From assembly GCF_019880225.1 (NCBI RefSeq), contig NZ_CP082284.1, forward strand, positions 2,666,001-2,730,000: DNA of 64,000 bases, written 5' to 3'. The translations under genes were made by a program, and so were the position numbers. Within the stretch, counting starts at the first letter, position 1; each line of letters begins with the position of its first letter. Positions 14,489 through 25,338 of the stretch are shown piece by piece. Origin of the DNA: Halobaculum rubrum. Lineage in GTDB: Archaea > Halobacteriota > Halobacteria > Halobacteriales > Haloferacaceae. A model generated the notes under the pieces. That model had not been told where the DNA came from. It ran no database searches and saw only the letters and a program-made list of their open reading frames with translations.

Positions 14489-15721
14489 TCACAGCACCCC
14501 GACGTCGCGCATCAACTGGAGCGTCGGCTGGATGTTGGACAGCTCGCGCAGGTCGATGCTCGGGGGATCCAGCTCCGACACCGGCGGCAGCCCGCCGACG
14601 GGCGGGATGTCGCCGACCATCGGGTAGCCGTACGTCCGAGTGGCGAAGAACTCCTGTGCCTCCGCCGACAGCAGGTGCCGGACGAAGTCGAACGCGAGCT
14701 CCTGGTTCTGACTCGCCGACAGCACCGACGCGCCGGCGACGTTGATGAGTCCGCCGGCGTCGCCGCTGGTGAACGCGAGGTCGATCGGCGCGTCCGGCCG
14801 GGCCGCCTGCACGCGCAGCGCGTAGTAGTGGTTCGCGAACCCGCCGTTGAGCGCGCCGTCGGCGACGGCGTTGGACACGAGGAACTCGTTGTTGTACTCG
14901 GTGACGCCCGCGTCGATCATCCCCTGGAGCCACTCCCGGGTGGCGTCCTCGCCCTCGAGCAGCCGCATCGCGGTGACGAACGACTGGAAGGCGCCGTAGG
15001 TGGGCGCCCAGCCGATCGCGTCCCGGAAGCCCTCGACCTCGGGGAACTCCATCACGCTGTCCGGGATGTCGTCGTCGGACAGTTCCTCGGTGTTGTACGG
15101 GACCGCGCGGGCACGCCCGGCGGTGCCGACCCACGTGTCGTCGGGATGGAACTCTTCTGGAACGGGGTCGACGACTTCCGAGGGAAGCTCTGCGGAGAGC
15201 CCCTCGGCGGAGACCGCCGCAAGCGACCCGGCGTCGACCGACCAGAACACGTCAGCCGGGGTCGCCGCGCCCTCGTTGATGATCGTGTTCGCGGCGTCGG
15301 ACGTCCCCGACTCGCGCGGCGTCGCGCTGAAGTCGGGGTAGATCCGCTCGAACTTCGCGAGCAGATCGCGATACAGGCCGCCCTCGCCGCCGCCGAGGTA
15401 GATGGTCAACTCGCCGCTGAGGTTCGGGAGCTCGGCGATGCGCGTACCGCCGATGTCGGACCGCCCCTGTGCCAGCGGGCCGGAGCCGCGGAAGTCGTCG
15501 AACGCGGCGCCGATCGCGTCGTCGCCCGATCCGCCGCCGCCGCCACCGACGCCGCCTCCGCCACCGCTACTTTCGCCGTCGTCGCCGCCGAGACCGCCAC
15601 AGCCGGCCAGGCCCGCGGCGCCGGCCGCGCCCAGTCCTGCCAGCACCTTCCGCCGCCGATACGTCCGCCGTCCGTTCGTGGTGTCGTCGGTCATGTCGTC
15701 GTGAGTCGTGTCGTCAGTCAT
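14489..15721 (-). CDS. Iron(III)-type ABC substrate-binding lipoprotein
   Basis: Extracellular solute-binding protein of 410 residues. The start at 15721 gives MTDDTTHDDMTDDTTNGRRT followed by RRRKVLAGLGAAGAAGLAGC, a Tat signal with a lipobox cysteine; the longer upstream frame reads noise. A Gly/Ser linker (GGGGGVGGGGGG) leads into a type 2 periplasmic-binding fold with ELTIYLGGGEGGLYRDLLAKF, ADVFWSVDAGSLAAVSAEGL, and a C-terminal HLLSAEAQEFFATRTYGYP. This resembles FbpA/FutA proteins. Its ATG overlaps the stop of the upstream GT75-like gene by 8 bp (ATGACTGA). Iron as ligand is inferred from similarity and from the operator-like palindrome ahead of the operon. Confidence 0.88.
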   Translation of the reverse strand: MTDDTTHDDMTDDTTNGRRTYRRRKVLAGLGAAGAAGLAGCGGLGGDDGESSGGGGGVGGGGGGSGDDAIGAAFDDFRGSGPLAQGRSDIGGTRIAELPNLSGELTIYLGGGEGGLYRDLLAKFERIYPDFSATPRESGTSDAANTIINEGAATPADVFWSVDAGSLAAVSAEGLSAELPSEVVDPVPEEFHPDDTWVGTAGRARAVPYNTEELSDDDIPDSVMEFPEVEGFRDAIGWAPTYGAFQSFVTAMRLLEGEDATREWLQGMIDAGVTEYNNEFLVSNAVADGALNGGFANHYYALRVQAARPDAPIDLAFTSGDAGGLINVAGASVLSASQNQELAFDFVRHLLSAEAQEFFATRTYGYPMVGDIPPVGGLPPVSELDPPSIDLRELSNIQPTLQLMRDVGVL

Positions 15722-16895
15722 CGGCAGGCACCCTCGCAGCGTCCGCAGCCGCCGCACGCGTTCCCGCGCCCTCGACGCGGTCGAGGCAGTCGAGCCAGTC
15801 GCGCATGTACTCTCCACAGTGGGTGAGGAACGCCCCGTTGTTCCATTCGTCGAAGTCACCCGCCGCGAGCGCGTCCGCCATCTCGGCGAACGCCGCCTCG
15901 AAGGAGTCGGCGTCGTCGGCGACGCCGTCGAGCACCTCCCAGACGTGTTCGTTCAGTTCGAGGCCGGCGACCTCGTTCGCGAGGTCGTCGAACGTCGAGC
16001 GCGGGGCCTTGTTGTGTTCACACAGCGGACCGCCGTTGTACACCTGCTTGCCGAGTTCGTCCGCGGCGCGCTTGAGGAACAGCCCCGACCAGATGTCGTC
16101 GAACCGGCCGACATCCCACTCGTTGTCGTCCATCGGGAGCTGATAGAACGCCGGGACGACCTCGCGGCGGAACGCGAGGTTCATCGAGCAGACGGTGAGG
16201 TACTGCCCCTCGGCGGCGACGAAGTCGCGCTCGAAGTCGCTCGCCTCGGTGAGCGTCTGTGCCTGTCCGTTCAGGTCGCCGTCCATGAGGATGCGGACGG
16301 CGTCGAGGTCGGGGACGTTCGTCCACAGTCCCTGCGAGGCGACGACCTCGTCGACGCGTTCGGTGTCGGTCTCGACTGATTCGTCCATCGCCGCGTAGGG
16401 GTACCCGCGCGGGTAGAGGTCGGTGTCCGACTGGTAGAGGACGTTCACCCACGACTCGTCGGAGCTGACGGACTCGATCTCGCCCTCGTACGCGAGGTTG
16501 CGCATGTGGGTGCCGAAGAAGTCCTCCTCGGGGTGGGGGAGCGTGTCGTCGTCGATGAAGACGCCGTACTCGAACCGCTCGTGGGCCCACAGGTACAACA
16601 GTCCGAAGGAGGTCTGTGCGTGACTCGCCGCGGGGATCAGGTGCGAGAACTCGCCGGCGTCGTGGTCGGCGAACCACGCCTCGCGGGCGGTGCCGTCGAA
16701 GACGGCGCCCTCGACGCCCTCCTCGTCGAGCATGGTCTCCATCGCGTCGGTGTCACAGAAGTCCTCGGTGACGAGGACGAAGAACAGCCGGTCGGTGTCG
16801 AAGCCGTGCTTCCGTGCGTTCGCGACGTACTCGCGAACGCACTCGTACTCCCGAATCGTCGGGATGACGACACAGATGTCCTGCGGTGTACTCAT
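15714..16895 (-). CDS. Alpha-1,4-glucan-protein synthase-like protein (GT75/RGP family)
   Basis: A soluble 393-residue protein with a GT-A-like fold: CVVIPTIREYECVREYVANA at the start, then RFEYGVFIDDDTLPHPEEDF with a DDD metal-binding motif, and a C-terminal region rich in acidic residues. The family includes plant reversibly glycosylated polypeptides and UDP-arabinopyranose mutases. The haloarchaeal members have no proven substrate. It is the first gene of the operon with the iron-type ABC transporter, which is a surprising place for such an enzyme. The palindrome TTAGGTTGGCCTAA lies 18-31 bp before its ATG, so the operon is probably regulated from there. Confidence 0.78.
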   Translation of the reverse strand: MSTPQDICVVIPTIREYECVREYVANARKHGFDTDRLFFVLVTEDFCDTDAMETMLDEEGVEGAVFDGTAREAWFADHDAGEFSHLIPAASHAQTSFGLLYLWAHERFEYGVFIDDDTLPHPEEDFFGTHMRNLAYEGEIESVSSDESWVNVLYQSDTDLYPRGYPYAAMDESVETDTERVDEVVASQGLWTNVPDLDAVRILMDGDLNGQAQTLTEASDFERDFVAAEGQYLTVCSMNLAFRREVVPAFYQLPMDDNEWDVGRFDDIWSGLFLKRAADELGKQVYNGGPLCEHNKAPRSTFDDLANEVAGLELNEHVWEVLDGVADDADSFEAAFAEMADALAAGDFDEWNNGAFLTHCGEYMRDWLDCLDRVEGAGTRAAAADAARVPADD

Positions 16896-16912
16896 TCGTT
16901 CTCGACTACTGA

Positions 16913-16926
16913 TTAGGTTGGCCTAA
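16913..16926. promoter_or_regulatory. Iron-box-like palindrome (putative DtxR-family operator), operon 16895-9292
   Basis: TTAGGTTGGCCTAA lies 18-31 bp upstream of the first gene of the GT75/iron-ABC operon, in position to block transcription initiation. Its reverse complement is identical to the 14-mer at 21790-21803, and both share the flanks GA and A on the plus strand. TTAGG...CCTAA half-sites are typical of DtxR/IdeR/SirR family regulators, which repress iron-uptake genes when iron is present. The regulator itself is not in the window. Confidence 0.6.
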
Positions 16927-17013
16927 AGAGTGTCGATTTTTTGGACGGCCGAAAATACCTGTTCGTGTCGCACCCACCGCACCGTCCTGAGAGTACTCAG
17001 GTCGTGTAGATCC

Positions 17014-19467
17014 TCACTGCGGCGGCTGAAGTGCGGCGTCGACGAGTCCCTCCAGTTCCGCGTGGCGACGCTGTAGGACCGCCTCACCCTCGGTCGTTGT
17101 GACGTATCTGTCACTGCGCCCGGCGCTGACCTTGTTGACCAGGCCGGCGTCCCGGAGCGTGTCGAGGTCGGGGTACAACTGGCCGTGGTTGAGTTCCGTG
17201 CCGATCTGTTCCTCGTACCGATCGGTCAGCGCCAGTCCGTGTGCCTCGTCGAGGGTGTCAACGAAGTACAGCAGCAGCAGTTGACGCTCGGTGAGGTCCA
17301 CAGCGGTGGGATCCGATCGGCCGTCGTCTAACGGATCTGTCGATTTCGACGGTGCGGCGGGCTGGGGCTCCGACGATTCGTCGGTGCTCGCTGACCCGCC
17401 GAATCCGATGCTTGCAAGTCCCAGCGTGACTCCGGCGAAGACGAGTACGGGACCGCCCAGCGCGACGCTGTACGGCACATACTGCAGGAGAAGCGTCGGA
17501 TCGACGACGAGTGTGACGACCAGCAGTCCGAGGTAGCCGGCGGTTGCGCCGACGCCGCCGGTGTGGGCGACCGCAGCGACCCGATCGAGGAACGTCGGCG
17601 CCGGCGACGGATCGGGGTCCGGAAGCCGGTCGGTGAACGCGTGGCCGTCCAACTCCGACGGCCTCGCGTCGAGCGTGTCGGCGATGAACGTCCGACGCTG
17701 TGACGACGCGTGTGACAGCCGAACGGACTCGTACGCGAGCCGACCGGCGACGCGGTCCGCCCAGAACGCGACCGCCGCCGCAACGACGACCACGCGCAGG
17801 AGGGGTGATCCGACCGCCGAGACGACCGCTACCGCTGCTAGGACCACGCCGACCGCCGGGGCGAGCAGCCCCGCACCGTTCGCAGCCGTCGCGATCCGCC
17901 GCGATGGACGCCTCCTTGAGGCGTACAGGACGCCGCCGACGACCGGCAGCGCGATGCCGATTGTGTCGGTGATCGACGATCCGAGTGGGAGCGCAGCGAG
18001 GAGGAAGCTTCCGACGACGGTGATCACTGCAGCGATGCCCGCGACGACGCCGACGGTCACGACGCTGCCCACGAACTGCCGAGGGCCAGCCTTGATCGTC
18101 TCGGCGAGCGTCCGGTCGTCGTCGTACTCGAAGAACCCGTCCTCGACGGCCGACTCGACCTGTTCACGCAGCGCCGCCGTGGGTTTGGGGGCGTCGTCGT
18201 ACCGGACGTCGCCGTCGATCTGGAACACGACGAACTCGTTTCCGCCGTGTCGGTACCGGACGCGTGTGACGGGTATCTCGTCCACGGTCGTCTCCTCGCG
18301 GTACAGTCCGCCATCGGTTTCGGGGTCACGTCGCTCTCGCTCCGCTTCCCACCCGTCGTGCCCGGTGACGTGATCCGTGGGGACTGCCGTCGCATTTAGG
18401 TTGACCACGGTGTCCGTCTTGAACGACAGCGTCCCTTCGTGCGCCTCGACCAGTTCGCCGTGGCCCTCGCACGTGTCACACGTGACGCGGCCGTCCTCGC
18501 ACACGTCACACTCGACGTTCCCGGACTCGTCGCAGACGGTGCACCTGATCTCTCCCGTCTCGTCGCAGGTAGTACAGCGAACCTCTTCCGAGCCGTGGCA
18601 CCTCGAACAGCGTATCTGCCCCTCGCCGCCACACGTGTCGCAGTCCCGTTCGGCGGTCCCGCCGCACGCCTCACAGTCGTTGGACCCGTCCCCGCTGCAC
18701 TCCGGGCAGTCGCGTTCGACGTCTTCGACCCCCTCGCCGTCACACCGTGGGCAGTCGACGACCACCTCGCCGTCGCAGCCGTCACACTCGTCGTCGTCGC
18801 CGTCGCAGTCGGGGCACTTGATCGCGCTCCGCCCGTCACAACGGGGGCACTGGTGTTCCGACGTGAGCGTCCCGGTCGAGTCGCAGTTCTGGCACTCCTC
18901 GGTCCCGGTCCCGTCACAGACGTCGCACCCGAGGGTGCCACTCGTGCACTCGGGACACTCCTCGATGGCGTCGCCGTCGCACTCGGGACACGTCTTCCTC
19001 GTCTCCCCGTCGCACTCCGGGCAGGTTCGCTCCTTGTCCCCGCCGCAGGTGCGACACGTGTGTTTCTCCGTTCCGTTGCACCGGTTGCAGGTCTCCCGCC
19101 CGCTCCCGGTACATCGTCCACACTCGCGTGCCGGCCGTCCGTGCTCGACGTACGGAACCTCGGCGTCCGTGAATCCGGTGGGTGCGTCGTCGTACCTGGA
19201 TTCGAACCCACGCCGAGAGGCGACGAGTCCCTCGTACTTCGGCGCCGGGAACGACGACCGATTCGCGGCGTCCGGGTCGTTCGCCGTCAGCGTCCGCCTC
19301 ACGCGCCGTTCGACGAGTTCGCTCTCGCTTTCGATCACCGTCGCCGCGGAGACGCCGGAGTCGACGTCGGGGTCGCTCGCCAGTTCCGTAAGCACCGACT
19401 GGGGCTCCGGGAAGCCGTCCCAGTCGCGCTCGTCGTCGAACAGGTCCTCACTCACGGCCCTGCGCAC
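17014..19467 (-). CDS. Cysteine-array (DnaJ-type zinc motifs) membrane protein with PadR-like domain
   Basis: No function is known to me. The 817-residue product has four parts. Residues 1-115 are acidic. Residues 116-333 hold 20 CxxC motifs (40 cysteines) spaced 8-15 residues apart, several in the DnaJ form CxxCxGxG (for example CGRCTGSG, CDVCDGTG, CPRCDGEG); they could bind up to ten zinc ions. After a soluble domain (~335-465), about six or seven hydrophobic segments fill 465-690. Residues 725-810 form a PadR-like winged helix (NHGQLYPDLDTLRDAGLVNK, RYVTTTEGEAVL). The start may be GTG 19467 or GTG 19455 (SEDLFDDERD). A monocistronic gene between two operons. The combination suggests a membrane-bound sensor or chaperone-linked regulator; this is inference. 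Confidence 0.85.
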   Translation of the reverse strand: MRRAVSEDLFDDERDWDGFPEPQSVLTELASDPDVDSGVSAATVIESESELVERRVRRTLTANDPDAANRSSFPAPKYEGLVASRRGFESRYDDAPTGFTDAEVPYVEHGRPARECGRCTGSGRETCNRCNGTEKHTCRTCGGDKERTCPECDGETRKTCPECDGDAIEECPECTSGTLGCDVCDGTGTEECQNCDSTGTLTSEHQCPRCDGRSAIKCPDCDGDDDECDGCDGEVVVDCPRCDGEGVEDVERDCPECSGDGSNDCEACGGTAERDCDTCGGEGQIRCSRCHGSEEVRCTTCDETGEIRCTVCDESGNVECDVCEDGRVTCDTCEGHGELVEAHEGTLSFKTDTVVNLNATAVPTDHVTGHDGWEAERERRDPETDGGLYREETTVDEIPVTRVRYRHGGNEFVVFQIDGDVRYDDAPKPTAALREQVESAVEDGFFEYDDDRTLAETIKAGPRQFVGSVVTVGVVAGIAAVITVVGSFLLAALPLGSSITDTIGIALPVVGGVLYASRRRPSRRIATAANGAGLLAPAVGVVLAAVAVVSAVGSPLLRVVVVAAAVAFWADRVAGRLAYESVRLSHASSQRRTFIADTLDARPSELDGHAFTDRLPDPDPSPAPTFLDRVAAVAHTGGVGATAGYLGLLVVTLVVDPTLLLQYVPYSVALGGPVLVFAGVTLGLASIGFGGSASTDESSEPQPAAPSKSTDPLDDGRSDPTAVDLTERQLLLLYFVDTLDEAHGLALTDRYEEQIGTELNHGQLYPDLDTLRDAGLVNKVSAGRSDRYVTTTEGEAVLQRRHAELEGLVDAALQPPQ

Positions 19468-19592
19468 CCCCGTCGAACGTCCCCGATCCTTTCATCTTGT
19501 ATACCACCGATCGGTCAACCGACTTAAACTAACCCTCTGCGTTCAGGTCCGGAGCATCACTGTACGGGACGGCCCCTCGACGCCGCACGCGG

Positions 19593-21209
19593 TTACAACC
19601 GCTCGGCGACGTGGTCGGCCGCCTTCAGCGACAGCGCCGCGATGGTGAGCGTCGGGTTCATCGCGCCGCCCGTCACGAACACCGAACTCCCGGCGAGCGT
19701 GAGGTTCGCGAGGTCGTGCGTCCGCAACTGCGGATTCACGACGCTCTCGGCGGGGTCGGTGCCCATCCGTGTCGTCCCCATGTGATGGTAGGCGGGTCCT
19801 GTGTTCTCGGGACCGACCGTCCACCCGATGTCGACGCCCAACTGCACCAGCACCGCACGCTGGATCTCGTTGGCGCGCTCGATGGTCCGCCTGGTCGTCC
19901 CGTCGACTCCCCACACCACGTCCGGAACCGGGTTCCCGTGATCGTCCGTCCGCGAGCGGTCCAGCCGGATCCGGTTCTCCCGCCGGGGAAGCTGCTCGAC
20001 GAGCGCGCCCATCGCGACGTGGGTTCCGTACCCCTCGCGGATCTCCGCGAGCAACTCGTCGCCGAAGCTGTCCGCGGTGAGGGCGATGTCCGCCGGGGCC
20101 GGCCCCGCGTAGTTGAGGAACTCCAGCTTGATCGCGGTGCGGGAGTCGTCCGGCCGGTCGTAGAACTGGTGGCTCTCGGTGGTGTTGAAGCCGACGTGCT
20201 TCTGGCGCGTGGGCTCCTCGAGGGTGCCGCCCATCCCCGCGAACAGGTGGTCCATGAAGTACCGGCCGACCAGCCCCGAGGAGTTCGCGAGGCCGTTCGG
20301 GTACGCCTCGCTCTCGGAGAGCAAGAGCAGTCGCGGCGTCTCCACGCCGCCGGCGGCGACGACGAACTCGCGGGCCTCCTGTCGGTGTTCCTCGCCGTCG
20401 GGCGTCGCGTACACCGCTGCGGTGACGTGGTCGCCGTCGTGGTCGAGTCGCTGGACGGGGACCCGGTCGAGGACGCGCGCCCCGTTCGCCTCCGCGATGT
20501 CGATGTGGCGGGTCGCGTCGTACTTCGCGCCGGAGGGGCAGACCGGCTTACAGGTGCCGTAGCCGACGCACGCACTCGCCTCGCCGGTCGGCTCGGAGTT
20601 GCGCGCGTTCGGCACCGAGTGGGTGGCGAGGCCGACGGCCTCGCACGCCTCCGCGAACAGCGAGTCCGAGTACGACGGCGGGAACGCCGGCAACGGGTGT
20701 GGTTCCTCCCTGGGCGGCGCGAACGGATCGTCCGAGGCGCCCGAGACTGACAGTTCGTCCTCGGCGGCGGCGTAGTACGGCCTGAGGTCGTCGTAGTCGA
20801 TGGGCCAGTCGTCGCCCAGTCCGACCGACGAGCGGAGCTCGAAGTCCTGCTCGTGCATTCGCATCACCATCCCCTGCCAGTGGAGCGTGGTCCCGCCGAT
20901 CCCTTTCACGCGGGCGGCGTTGAGGGGATACTCCCGGTCGCCGGTGCTGCTGTAGGCGTCGCGCTCGGGGTCGGTGTCCCACACCGGCGCGTCGGTGCCC
21001 GGCCGAAGGTGTCGCTCCATGCGATCGATCCGGTCGTCGGGGTCGAACCGCGGCCCCGCGTCCAACACGACGACCTCGTGGCCCGCCGCGGACAGTTCGG
21101 CGGCGACGAGCGCGCCCGCCGGCCCCGCGCCGACGACGCAGACGTCCGCCCGCGGCGACGGCGTCCGATCGACACCCTCGTCGTCGCTGTCGGCTTCGTC
21201 GGCACTCAT
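19593..21209 (-). CDS. GMC-family FAD oxidoreductase (sugar/alcohol dehydrogenase type)
   Basis: A 538-residue flavoenzyme. The FAD-binding start is VCVVGAGPAGALVAAELSAAG at ~23-43, followed by VLDAGPRFDPD, the GMC signature region RVKGIGGTTLHWQG, and a C-terminal YHHMGTTRMGTD...GGAMNPTLTIAALSLKAAD. A short cysteine motif (CVGYGTCKPVCPSG) is typical of gluconate/sorbitol-dehydrogenase-type large subunits. The start overlaps the stop of the 190-residue Tat protein by 4 bp (ATGA), giving a two-gene unit like the large and small subunits of gluconate 2-dehydrogenase. The cytochrome subunit of that enzyme is absent. Electron acceptor and substrate are unknown. Confidence 0.87.
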   Translation of the reverse strand: MSADEADSDDEGVDRTPSPRADVCVVGAGPAGALVAAELSAAGHEVVVLDAGPRFDPDDRIDRMERHLRPGTDAPVWDTDPERDAYSSTGDREYPLNAARVKGIGGTTLHWQGMVMRMHEQDFELRSSVGLGDDWPIDYDDLRPYYAAAEDELSVSGASDDPFAPPREEPHPLPAFPPSYSDSLFAEACEAVGLATHSVPNARNSEPTGEASACVGYGTCKPVCPSGAKYDATRHIDIAEANGARVLDRVPVQRLDHDGDHVTAAVYATPDGEEHRQEAREFVVAAGGVETPRLLLLSESEAYPNGLANSSGLVGRYFMDHLFAGMGGTLEEPTRQKHVGFNTTESHQFYDRPDDSRTAIKLEFLNYAGPAPADIALTADSFGDELLAEIREGYGTHVAMGALVEQLPRRENRIRLDRSRTDDHGNPVPDVVWGVDGTTRRTIERANEIQRAVLVQLGVDIGWTVGPENTGPAYHHMGTTRMGTDPAESVVNPQLRTHDLANLTLAGSSVFVTGGAMNPTLTIAALSLKAADHVAERL

Positions 21210-21789: not shown

Positions 21790-21803
21790 TTAGGCCAACC
21801 TAA
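21790..21803. promoter_or_regulatory. Iron-box-like palindrome (putative DtxR-family operator), GMC operon
   Basis: TTAGGCCAACCTAA lies 12-25 bp upstream of the Tat subunit start. It is the exact reverse complement of the site at 16913-16926. A second perfect 14-mer copy in front of a different transcription unit makes chance unlikely and points to joint control by an iron-responsive repressor. Confidence 0.6.
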
Positions 21804-24600: not shown

Positions 24601-25338
24601 TCAGTCGTCGGCCCGCGCCCGTTCGAACCGGTCGGCCGGGAGACGAAGGTCGTCGAGCCCCGGGAGGTGCTTGACGTTGAAGATCACCCGGAGCGTCTCG
24701 GAGATCGGACGACCGATACACGAGAGGCGAAAGCCCCGCTCCACCAGGTCATCGGTGAGCACGTTGTCGACGGTGCTGTCGAGTTCCCCCTCGACGACCG
24801 CGACGGCGCAGTTCGCACAGGCGCCGCCGCGGCAGGCGAACGGCCACGCGAACCCGCGTTGTTCGGCCGCTTCCAGCAGCGTCTCCCCCGGTTCCGCGAG
24901 GAACAGTCCGTAGTCGTCCGGATCGAGGTCGGCACTCGACGCCGCCTCGAAGAGATCGGGATCGTCGATGTCCCACCCGTGGTCGGCGACGACATCGTAG
25001 TTCAGATACTCGACGCGGGTGGTCGTCAGCGGTCGGTCACCCGTTTCCCCGCCACGCTCCCCGTCGGTCTGCCCGGTCGGGTCCGACTGTGCGTCGGCAC
25101 CCGGGCTTGCCGGCGGTGATTCTCCCTGTGGGTCGGCTGCCCCATCGGCTCCCACGTCATCCGGCGCGATAGCGGCCCCCGAGATCACCGCCTCGTACGC
25201 TTCCCGAACGCGCTGAAACTCCTCGGCGGATCCGCCTCGGTCCGGGTGGGCCTCCTTCACGCTCCGCCGGTAGGCCCGTTCGATCTCCGTATCGTCGGCG
25301 TCGGCGTCGAGCCCCAGTACGTCGTACGGAGAATCCAC
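24601..25338 (-). CDS. J-domain / 2Fe-2S ferredoxin fusion protein
   Basis: A 245-residue protein. Residues 1-55 are a J domain (YDVLGLDADADDTEIERAYR, HPD at 31-33), the part that stimulates Hsp70. A low-complexity linker (56-103) follows. Residues 108-235 form a halophilic plant-type ferredoxin with cluster cysteines Cys169, Cys174, Cys177 and Cys207 (CRGGACANCAV and LSCIG) and the acidic insert YLNYDVVADHGWDIDDPDLF. The fusion may place an Fe-S carrier at a chaperone for cluster assembly or repair; this is inference. A solitary gene flanked by two pseudogenes. Its domain order is complete and all four ligands are present, so it is likely functional. Confidence 0.88.
   Translation of the reverse strand: MDSPYDVLGLDADADDTEIERAYRRSVKEAHPDRGGSAEEFQRVREAYEAVISGAAIAPDDVGADGAADPQGESPPASPGADAQSDPTGQTDGERGGETGDRPLTTTRVEYLNYDVVADHGWDIDDPDLFEAASSADLDPDDYGLFLAEPGETLLEAAEQRGFAWPFACRGGACANCAVAVVEGELDSTVDNVLTDDLVERGFRLSCIGRPISETLRVIFNVKHLPGLDDLRLPADRFERARADD

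Follow-up and report, generated by a model that had tools for sequence, protein, structure and literature searches.

A Halobaculum membrane protein with a mirror-symmetric array of 20 CxxC motifs, a candidate membrane-anchored zinc chaperone

Introduction

The cysteine-rich domain of DnaJ (1exk; PF00684) carries an even number of CxxCxGxG motifs with a central loop, and in the DnaJ structure motif 1 pairs with motif 4 and motif 2 with motif 3. Zinc domains of this type are also found in proteins that have no J-domain. LQY1, anchored in the thylakoid membrane, has four CXXCXGXG repeats, two zinc ions and disulfide-isomerase activity (PMC6805722). ZnJ2 has a J-less DnaJ-type zinc finger and holds unfolded protein; loss of its cysteines leaves the holdase activity intact, no disulfide formation is induced, and J-less proteins of this kind, ZnJ2 among them, work without DnaK (PMC5818400). 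On the side of transcription control, the haloarchaeal PadR-type regulator RosR contains no cysteines, and the mechanism by which it senses oxidants is unexplained (PMC4287449).

Here we describe a gene of Halobaculum rubrum, located in a window of 64 kb (the whole stretch of DNA analysed), whose product is called the zinc-ladder protein below. It shares with DnaJ the CxxCxGxG motifs, their even number and a central loop, but has 20 motifs at an 11-residue period, whereas haloarchaeal DnaJ has 4 with spacings of 17, 26 and 14. Like LQY1, it joins a membrane anchor to a CXXCXGXG zinc domain without a J-domain (PMC6805722); LQY1 differs in being plant-specific, with only four motifs, a single N-terminal transmembrane (TM) segment and no winged helix. 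The chloroplast holdases ZnJ2 and BSD2 resemble it in their J-less DnaJ-type zinc finger, but they are soluble, with four motifs and no membrane block, and no cooperation of ZnJ2 with Hsp70 has been found. The C-terminal domain has the winged-helix fold of RosR and other haloarchaeal PadR regulators and partly keeps their NHG-LYP recognition motif; RosR, in contrast, is free-standing, soluble and cysteine-free, whereas this winged helix ends a membrane protein and is changed at several near-invariant positions. For the zinc-ladder protein we favour, with a probability of about one half, the role of an Hsp40-type zinc/thiol chaperone (holdase) that lacks a J-domain and is anchored in the membrane.

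Domain layout and sequence comparison

The gene is a single open frame that runs along the minus strand from a GTG and encodes 817 aa (window 17014-19467). The alignment of promoter and start with four orthologues makes a second GTG at 19453-19455 the likelier start, giving 813 aa; residue numbers throughout follow the 817-aa version. The TTTAAG element upstream of the gene is a putative promoter element (Table 1). Reading from the N-terminus, an N-domain is followed by the CxxC array, a beta-domain and one helix; about six TM segments come next, and a linker leads to the C-terminal winged helix. Neither the N-domain nor the beta-domain is covered by a Pfam family. A full-length AF2 model, built with one homologue, had a pLDDT of 32 and was left out of the claims on fold.

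Table 1. Positions of the features discussed; coordinates refer to the window unless a locus label precedes them
Feature	Position	Strand	Basis or remark
Zinc-ladder membrane protein gene	17014..19455	minus	813 aa; open frame, start from orthologue alignment
N-domain, residues 24-112	19132..19398	minus	kept across the haloarchaeal family; alignment of 17 family members
CxxC array, residues 116-333	18469..19122	minus	20 motifs, arms 8-4-8, mirror-symmetric spacing
Beta-domain, residues 339-431	18175..18453	minus	family-wide; beta-domain profile retrieves members; strands in low-confidence model
Membrane block, residues 462-688	17404..18084	minus	about six TM helices; hydropathy, loop charges, low-confidence model
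PadR-type winged helix, residues 722-813	17029..17304	minus	Pfam PF03551, AF2, Foldseek
TATA-like element TTTAAG	19523..19528	minus	5' of the zinc-ladder gene; promoter alignment, position common to orthologues
GMC oxidoreductase	19593..21209	minus	neighbour, upstream slot border
Alpha-1,4-glucan-protein synthase	15714..16895	minus	neighbour, downstream slot border
TTAGG-N4-CCTAA palindrome	16913..16926	.	just before glucan-protein synthase / downstream operon
TTAGG-N4-CCTAA palindrome	21790..21803	.	before upstream gluconate-dehydrogenase-subunit-3/GMC unit
Divergent Hsp70-ATPase-like genes	L100:5365-6510, L101:5160-6296, L102:5975-7114, L130:5956-7185		operons with array genes
Short extra Hsp70s, about 520 aa	L031:12005-13579, L106:2108-3667, L130:2261-3829		beside array genes, additional to canonical DnaK

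The initial annotation had counted 20 CxxC motifs (40 cysteines) and called this number exceptional, and both statements were borne out. All 40 cysteines of the protein sit inside the 20 motifs, cysteine content is 4.9% compared to a median of 0.54% for 56 open reading frames of the window, and shuffles that preserved composition gave a mean of 1.9 CxxC motifs and a maximum of 7. Its description of several motifs as being in the DnaJ form CxxCxGxG applies exactly to 6 of the 20, and to 15 only when the pattern is relaxed to CxxCxG. The six or seven hydrophobic segments that it listed were narrowed to six helices. Basic loops at residues 519-531 and 576-599 suggest an N-in/C-in topology for the membrane block, and the even number of TM segments would place the array and the winged helix on one side of the membrane.

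Domain searches tied the array to DnaJ weakly. Searched against the PDB, the array of a relative matched the DnaJ cysteine-rich domain 1exk best, though weakly (E 6e-4), PF00684 scored 17.6 bits on the zinc-ladder protein against a cut-off of 32.7, with relatives below the cut-off too, and the BSD2_CRD Pfam matches were likewise weak and below cut-off. There was no match of the J-domain PF00226 in the zinc-ladder protein, while one distant relative has it fused, and no Pfam match of the DnaJ C-terminal domain (beta-sandwich). By these tests of J-domain, PF00684 and C-terminal domain, all at the level of sequence, the protein is placed outside the DnaJ family. A DnaJ origin of the flanking domains was considered as well and rejected, as hhalign of these domains against DnaJ gave no match.

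Mirror symmetry of the cysteine array

CxxC motifs recur every 10-11 residues, interrupted by a few longer loops. Across the family the motif number is 4, 6, 8, 10, 14, 16, 18 or 20, with rare degenerate exceptions, and the arms are laid out as 2-2, 3-3, 4-4, 5-5, 5-4-5, 8-8 or 7-4-7, the window protein being 8-4-8. Spacings are mirror-symmetric in nearly every member; by lineage, the longer loops are placed symmetrically about the middle in 9 of 10. When spacings were permuted within each of the ten lineages, the observed total symmetry was never reached in 200000 trials (P<1/200000), and it was equally unreached with loops scored simply as present or absent. The window protein differs from its 7-4-7 orthologues by one extra motif per arm, that is, by a whole rung. 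Between the five Halobaculum orthologues, all 36 common cysteine columns are invariant, compared to 45 of 168 other columns of the array.

Even counts and mirror-symmetric spacing are therefore most simply read as a nested arrangement like that of DnaJ, with motif N+1-i as the probable partner of motif i; the array is predicted to bind zinc, probably about 10 ions in the window protein. Tandem duplication would yield a translational order, not a mirror order. Pairing of adjacent motifs was rejected in favour of mirror pairing, since loops would split the pairs in the g3, g20 and g27 types. The array would thus be an extended form of the DnaJ zinc finger, an antiparallel hairpin with one zinc per i/N+1-i pair. 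Of the results presented here, this rule of mirror order is the most general and testable. If it holds, it offers a predictive code for long CxxC arrays (motif count, loop positions and zinc number) that spans archaea and viruses, and the four-motif DnaJ finger would be extendable by whole rungs.

Mirror-symmetric arrays were also seen on viral contigs from IMG/VR, with arms of 7-7 (L051), 4-4 (L056), 3-3 (L061) and 2-2 (L070). These viral proteins (L051-L070) have arrays of 4-14 CxxC motifs at an 11-residue period, and their flanking domains are unrelated to the haloarchaeal family. Another viral-contig protein (L071) has 33 CxxC motifs with a period of 8-9 residues and no mirror symmetry, and represents a different type of array.

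Relatives and their gene neighbourhood

The family core consists of an N-domain, a CxxC array of 4-20 motifs, a beta-domain and a TM anchor. A beta-domain profile detected the family in 18 of 391 haloarchaeal genomes; it was found in 15 of 170 genomes of the window's taxonomic family and in 6 of 146 of another, and in a phylum-wide draw of 393 genomes the matches were confined to haloarchaea of the same order. TM layouts are mostly one C-terminal TM segment, a block of 4-6, or N-terminal segments plus a C-terminal one, and in two members (L042 and L048) no TM segment was seen. Scans of contigs and viral sequences with the first alignments gave mostly no match, or matches to the array only. The gene is present in 5 of 11 Halobaculum genomes, always in a single syntenic slot, and all five carriers have the array, the membrane block and the C-terminal winged helix. 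The initial annotation had asked whether this fused order recurs in other haloarchaea: it does within the genus, but a winged helix was found in no family homologue outside Halobaculum. Homologues without the winged helix had been named there as a refuting condition for the fusion, and by that criterion the winged helix is a genus-specific addition and not part of the family architecture. The order of array, membrane block and PadR domain had been said to match no described family, and we likewise found it in none of Pfam, NCBIfam, PADLOC and PHROGs. A literature search of incomplete coverage returned nothing relevant on long archaeal CxxC arrays or tandem DnaJ fingers. A defence system was also considered, and no PADLOC match was obtained. 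On H. salinarum pNRC200, a frame with array and beta-domain (L072:4854-5882) begins at the end of an ISH6 transposase; it lacks both the N-domain and TM segments and appears to be a truncated remnant.

In two genera (L031 and L106), the array gene lies beside genes for a J-domain protein (PF00226, 7e-21) and a 520-aa Hsp70 (PF00012, 2e-155). It abuts a J-domain protein gene in L108, and in L103 a J-domain is fused to the N-terminus of the array protein itself. In L100-L102 it overlaps the stop of a gene for a 380-aa Hsp70-like ATPase, the profile of which is collinear with the Hsp70 ATPase domain (3kvg, E 0.004) and which had no Pfam match where examined (L102). The same pair is found in L127, where the ATPase reads in two pieces, and in L130 an Hsp70-like ATPase and an Hsp70 form one cluster with the array gene on the same strand. 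Altogether, an Hsp70, Hsp70-like or J-domain gene is adjacent to the array gene, in one operon with it or fused to it in five of about 11 lineages by our own count, while six lineages including Halobaculum have no such neighbour. A genome holds only about 5.6 J genes and 1-3 Hsp70 matches, from which we estimate a chance neighbourhood of about 1% per locus, so that five of about 11 lineages is far above chance.

Because relatives adjoin Hsp70 and DnaJ-type genes, a role in membrane-bound protein quality control is probable. The hairpin would rise from a base of N-domain and beta-domain and face the cytoplasm, where the array would retain, at the membrane, clients that are unfolded or mis-oxidised and hand them over to Hsp70 and a J-protein in trans. 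The Halobaculum version additionally carries the membrane block of six helices and a PadR/RosR-type winged helix predicted to lie in the cytoplasm. For the zinc-ladder protein itself, we infer client binding and a partnership with Hsp70 from its relatives. Capture of unfolded or oxidised proteins by the array was one of the two roles proposed at the outset, and for unfolded proteins the linkage to Hsp70 and J-domain genes in relatives lends it independent support. Against the chaperone reading stands the observation that the Halobaculum genes are not beside Hsp70 or J genes and lie instead in an exchangeable slot, with the nearest J-domain gene outside the orthologues' syntenic block. The missing homology of the flanking domains to the DnaJ C-terminal domain and the DnaK-independent action of ZnJ2 (PMC5818400) also count against it. 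If the chaperone reading is correct, archaea would have a so far undescribed membrane branch of protein quality control, with the zinc/client module separate from the J-domain and Hsp70.

The isomerase activity of the membrane-anchored LQY1 raises a further alternative, that the CxxC pairs exchange disulfides of membrane proteins beyond binding zinc and clients, and most relatives do consist of an array plus a TM anchor. The invariance of the array cysteines and their mirror order fit structural zinc instead, and the ZnJ2 results speak against it too, so that we hold an isomerase to be improbable.

The C-terminal winged helix

That the C-terminal part adopts a PadR fold, as first suggested from its signature, was confirmed: PF03551 matches residues 733-799 with 32.9 bits (curated cut-off 27), an AF2 model with 19 homologues has a pLDDT of 86.7 and the order H-H-H-E-E-H with a long C-terminal dimerisation helix, and RosR is its best Foldseek match (Z 14.3 over 95 residues; 33-35% identity), with RosR and PadR structures heading the match list at Z 12-14. 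Only the window copy passes the PF03551 cut-off, orthologues scoring 18.6 bits (L026) or giving no match (L025), and the winged helix is the most divergent folded part between Halobaculum orthologues (25-30% identity). Near-invariant PadR/RosR positions are changed in the window copy (F17R, K37T, R52Q, N56D and N75D in A12 numbering, with H50, G51, L53, Y54, P55 and R73 kept), and the H. saliterrae orthologue (L050) has lost more, including most conserved recognition and wing residues. The changed positions lie at or near the predicted DNA-contact surface. We therefore accept the modelled fold as shown and regard DNA binding only as putative; dimerisation is the most likely role, possibly with signalling.

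These data bear on a second explanation of the whole protein, a membrane-tethered one-component regulator whose array would act as a sensor of oxidants, metal or unfolded protein and set whether the winged helix binds DNA. The well-supported fold and the common side of array and winged helix agree with it, and a thiol array fused to a RosR-type domain would supply the sensor for which cysteine-free RosR offers no explanation. The absence of the winged helix outside the genus and the changed positions speak against it. Furthermore, no inverted repeat was found in promoters of the zinc-ladder gene, and a search for a RosR operator gave no usable signal, the 100 near-matches to the RosR motif in 64 kb being uninformative because they reflect codon bias. 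The coupling of array and transcription proposed in the initial annotation was thus not supported as a trait of the family, and we consider such a regulator unlikely. A broader version is a new kind of zinc protein, a hairpin with mirror-order pairing of any even number of CxxC motifs, present in haloarchaea and independently in viruses; in Halobaculum it would be part of a membrane-tethered protein whose PadR winged helix relays the client or oxidation state of the array to transcription. We consider this version distinctly unlikely. Whether a RosR-type fold is joined to a thiol array is now a testable question. Two other genera have, some 1.3 kb upstream of the array gene, a PadR gene that resembles RosR (L029:4951-5373 and L105:5060-5416), which the regulator reading can claim in its favour; the array proteins there have no winged helix.

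The Halobaculum locus

The gene lies in a variable slot (window 16896-19592) between the GMC oxidoreductase and glucan-protein synthase (RGP) genes. In five Halobaculum loci without it (L091-L095), the slot is empty in two (about 100 bp) and holds a Gfo/Idh-like gene in one and a PQQ-propeller-like gene in two, as assigned from our reading of the translations. An operon partnership with the GMC and glucan-protein synthase genes was rejected on this basis. The neighbours are 74-97% identical to the window copies (89-96% for GMC, RGP, the solute-binding protein and the permease), compared to about 41% for the zinc-ladder protein. Since dS to the window copy is about 0.97 for the array gene and 0.3-0.5 for neighbours, it is likelier that divergent alleles replaced one another at the slot than that the gene evolved faster, and dN/dS of about 0.2 among close orthologues indicates constraint.

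A TTAGG-N4-CCTAA palindrome, which we take to be probably a DtxR-type iron operator, is found in all ten Halobaculum loci read (L025-L028, L091-L095 and the window) before the downstream operon, which encodes RGP, a solute-binding protein and an iron ABC permease, and in most of them before the upstream unit. Because these sites flank the block in most genomes, the slot region is probably iron-regulated. A metal buffer or metallochaperone, storing zinc or iron in connection with the surrounding iron-regulated genes, would fit these palindromes, but is very unlikely, as the iron cluster does without the zinc-ladder gene in the five loci where the slot holds other genes or nothing, and the array genes of relatives have different surroundings, in several cases with Hsp70/J genes. 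The J-domain gene nearest to the zinc-ladder gene (window 24604-25338) encodes a J-domain fused to a 2Fe-2S ferredoxin domain and lies outside the syntenic block of the orthologues; in H. magnesiiphilum, a J-domain gene of similar size is about 51 kb from the array gene.
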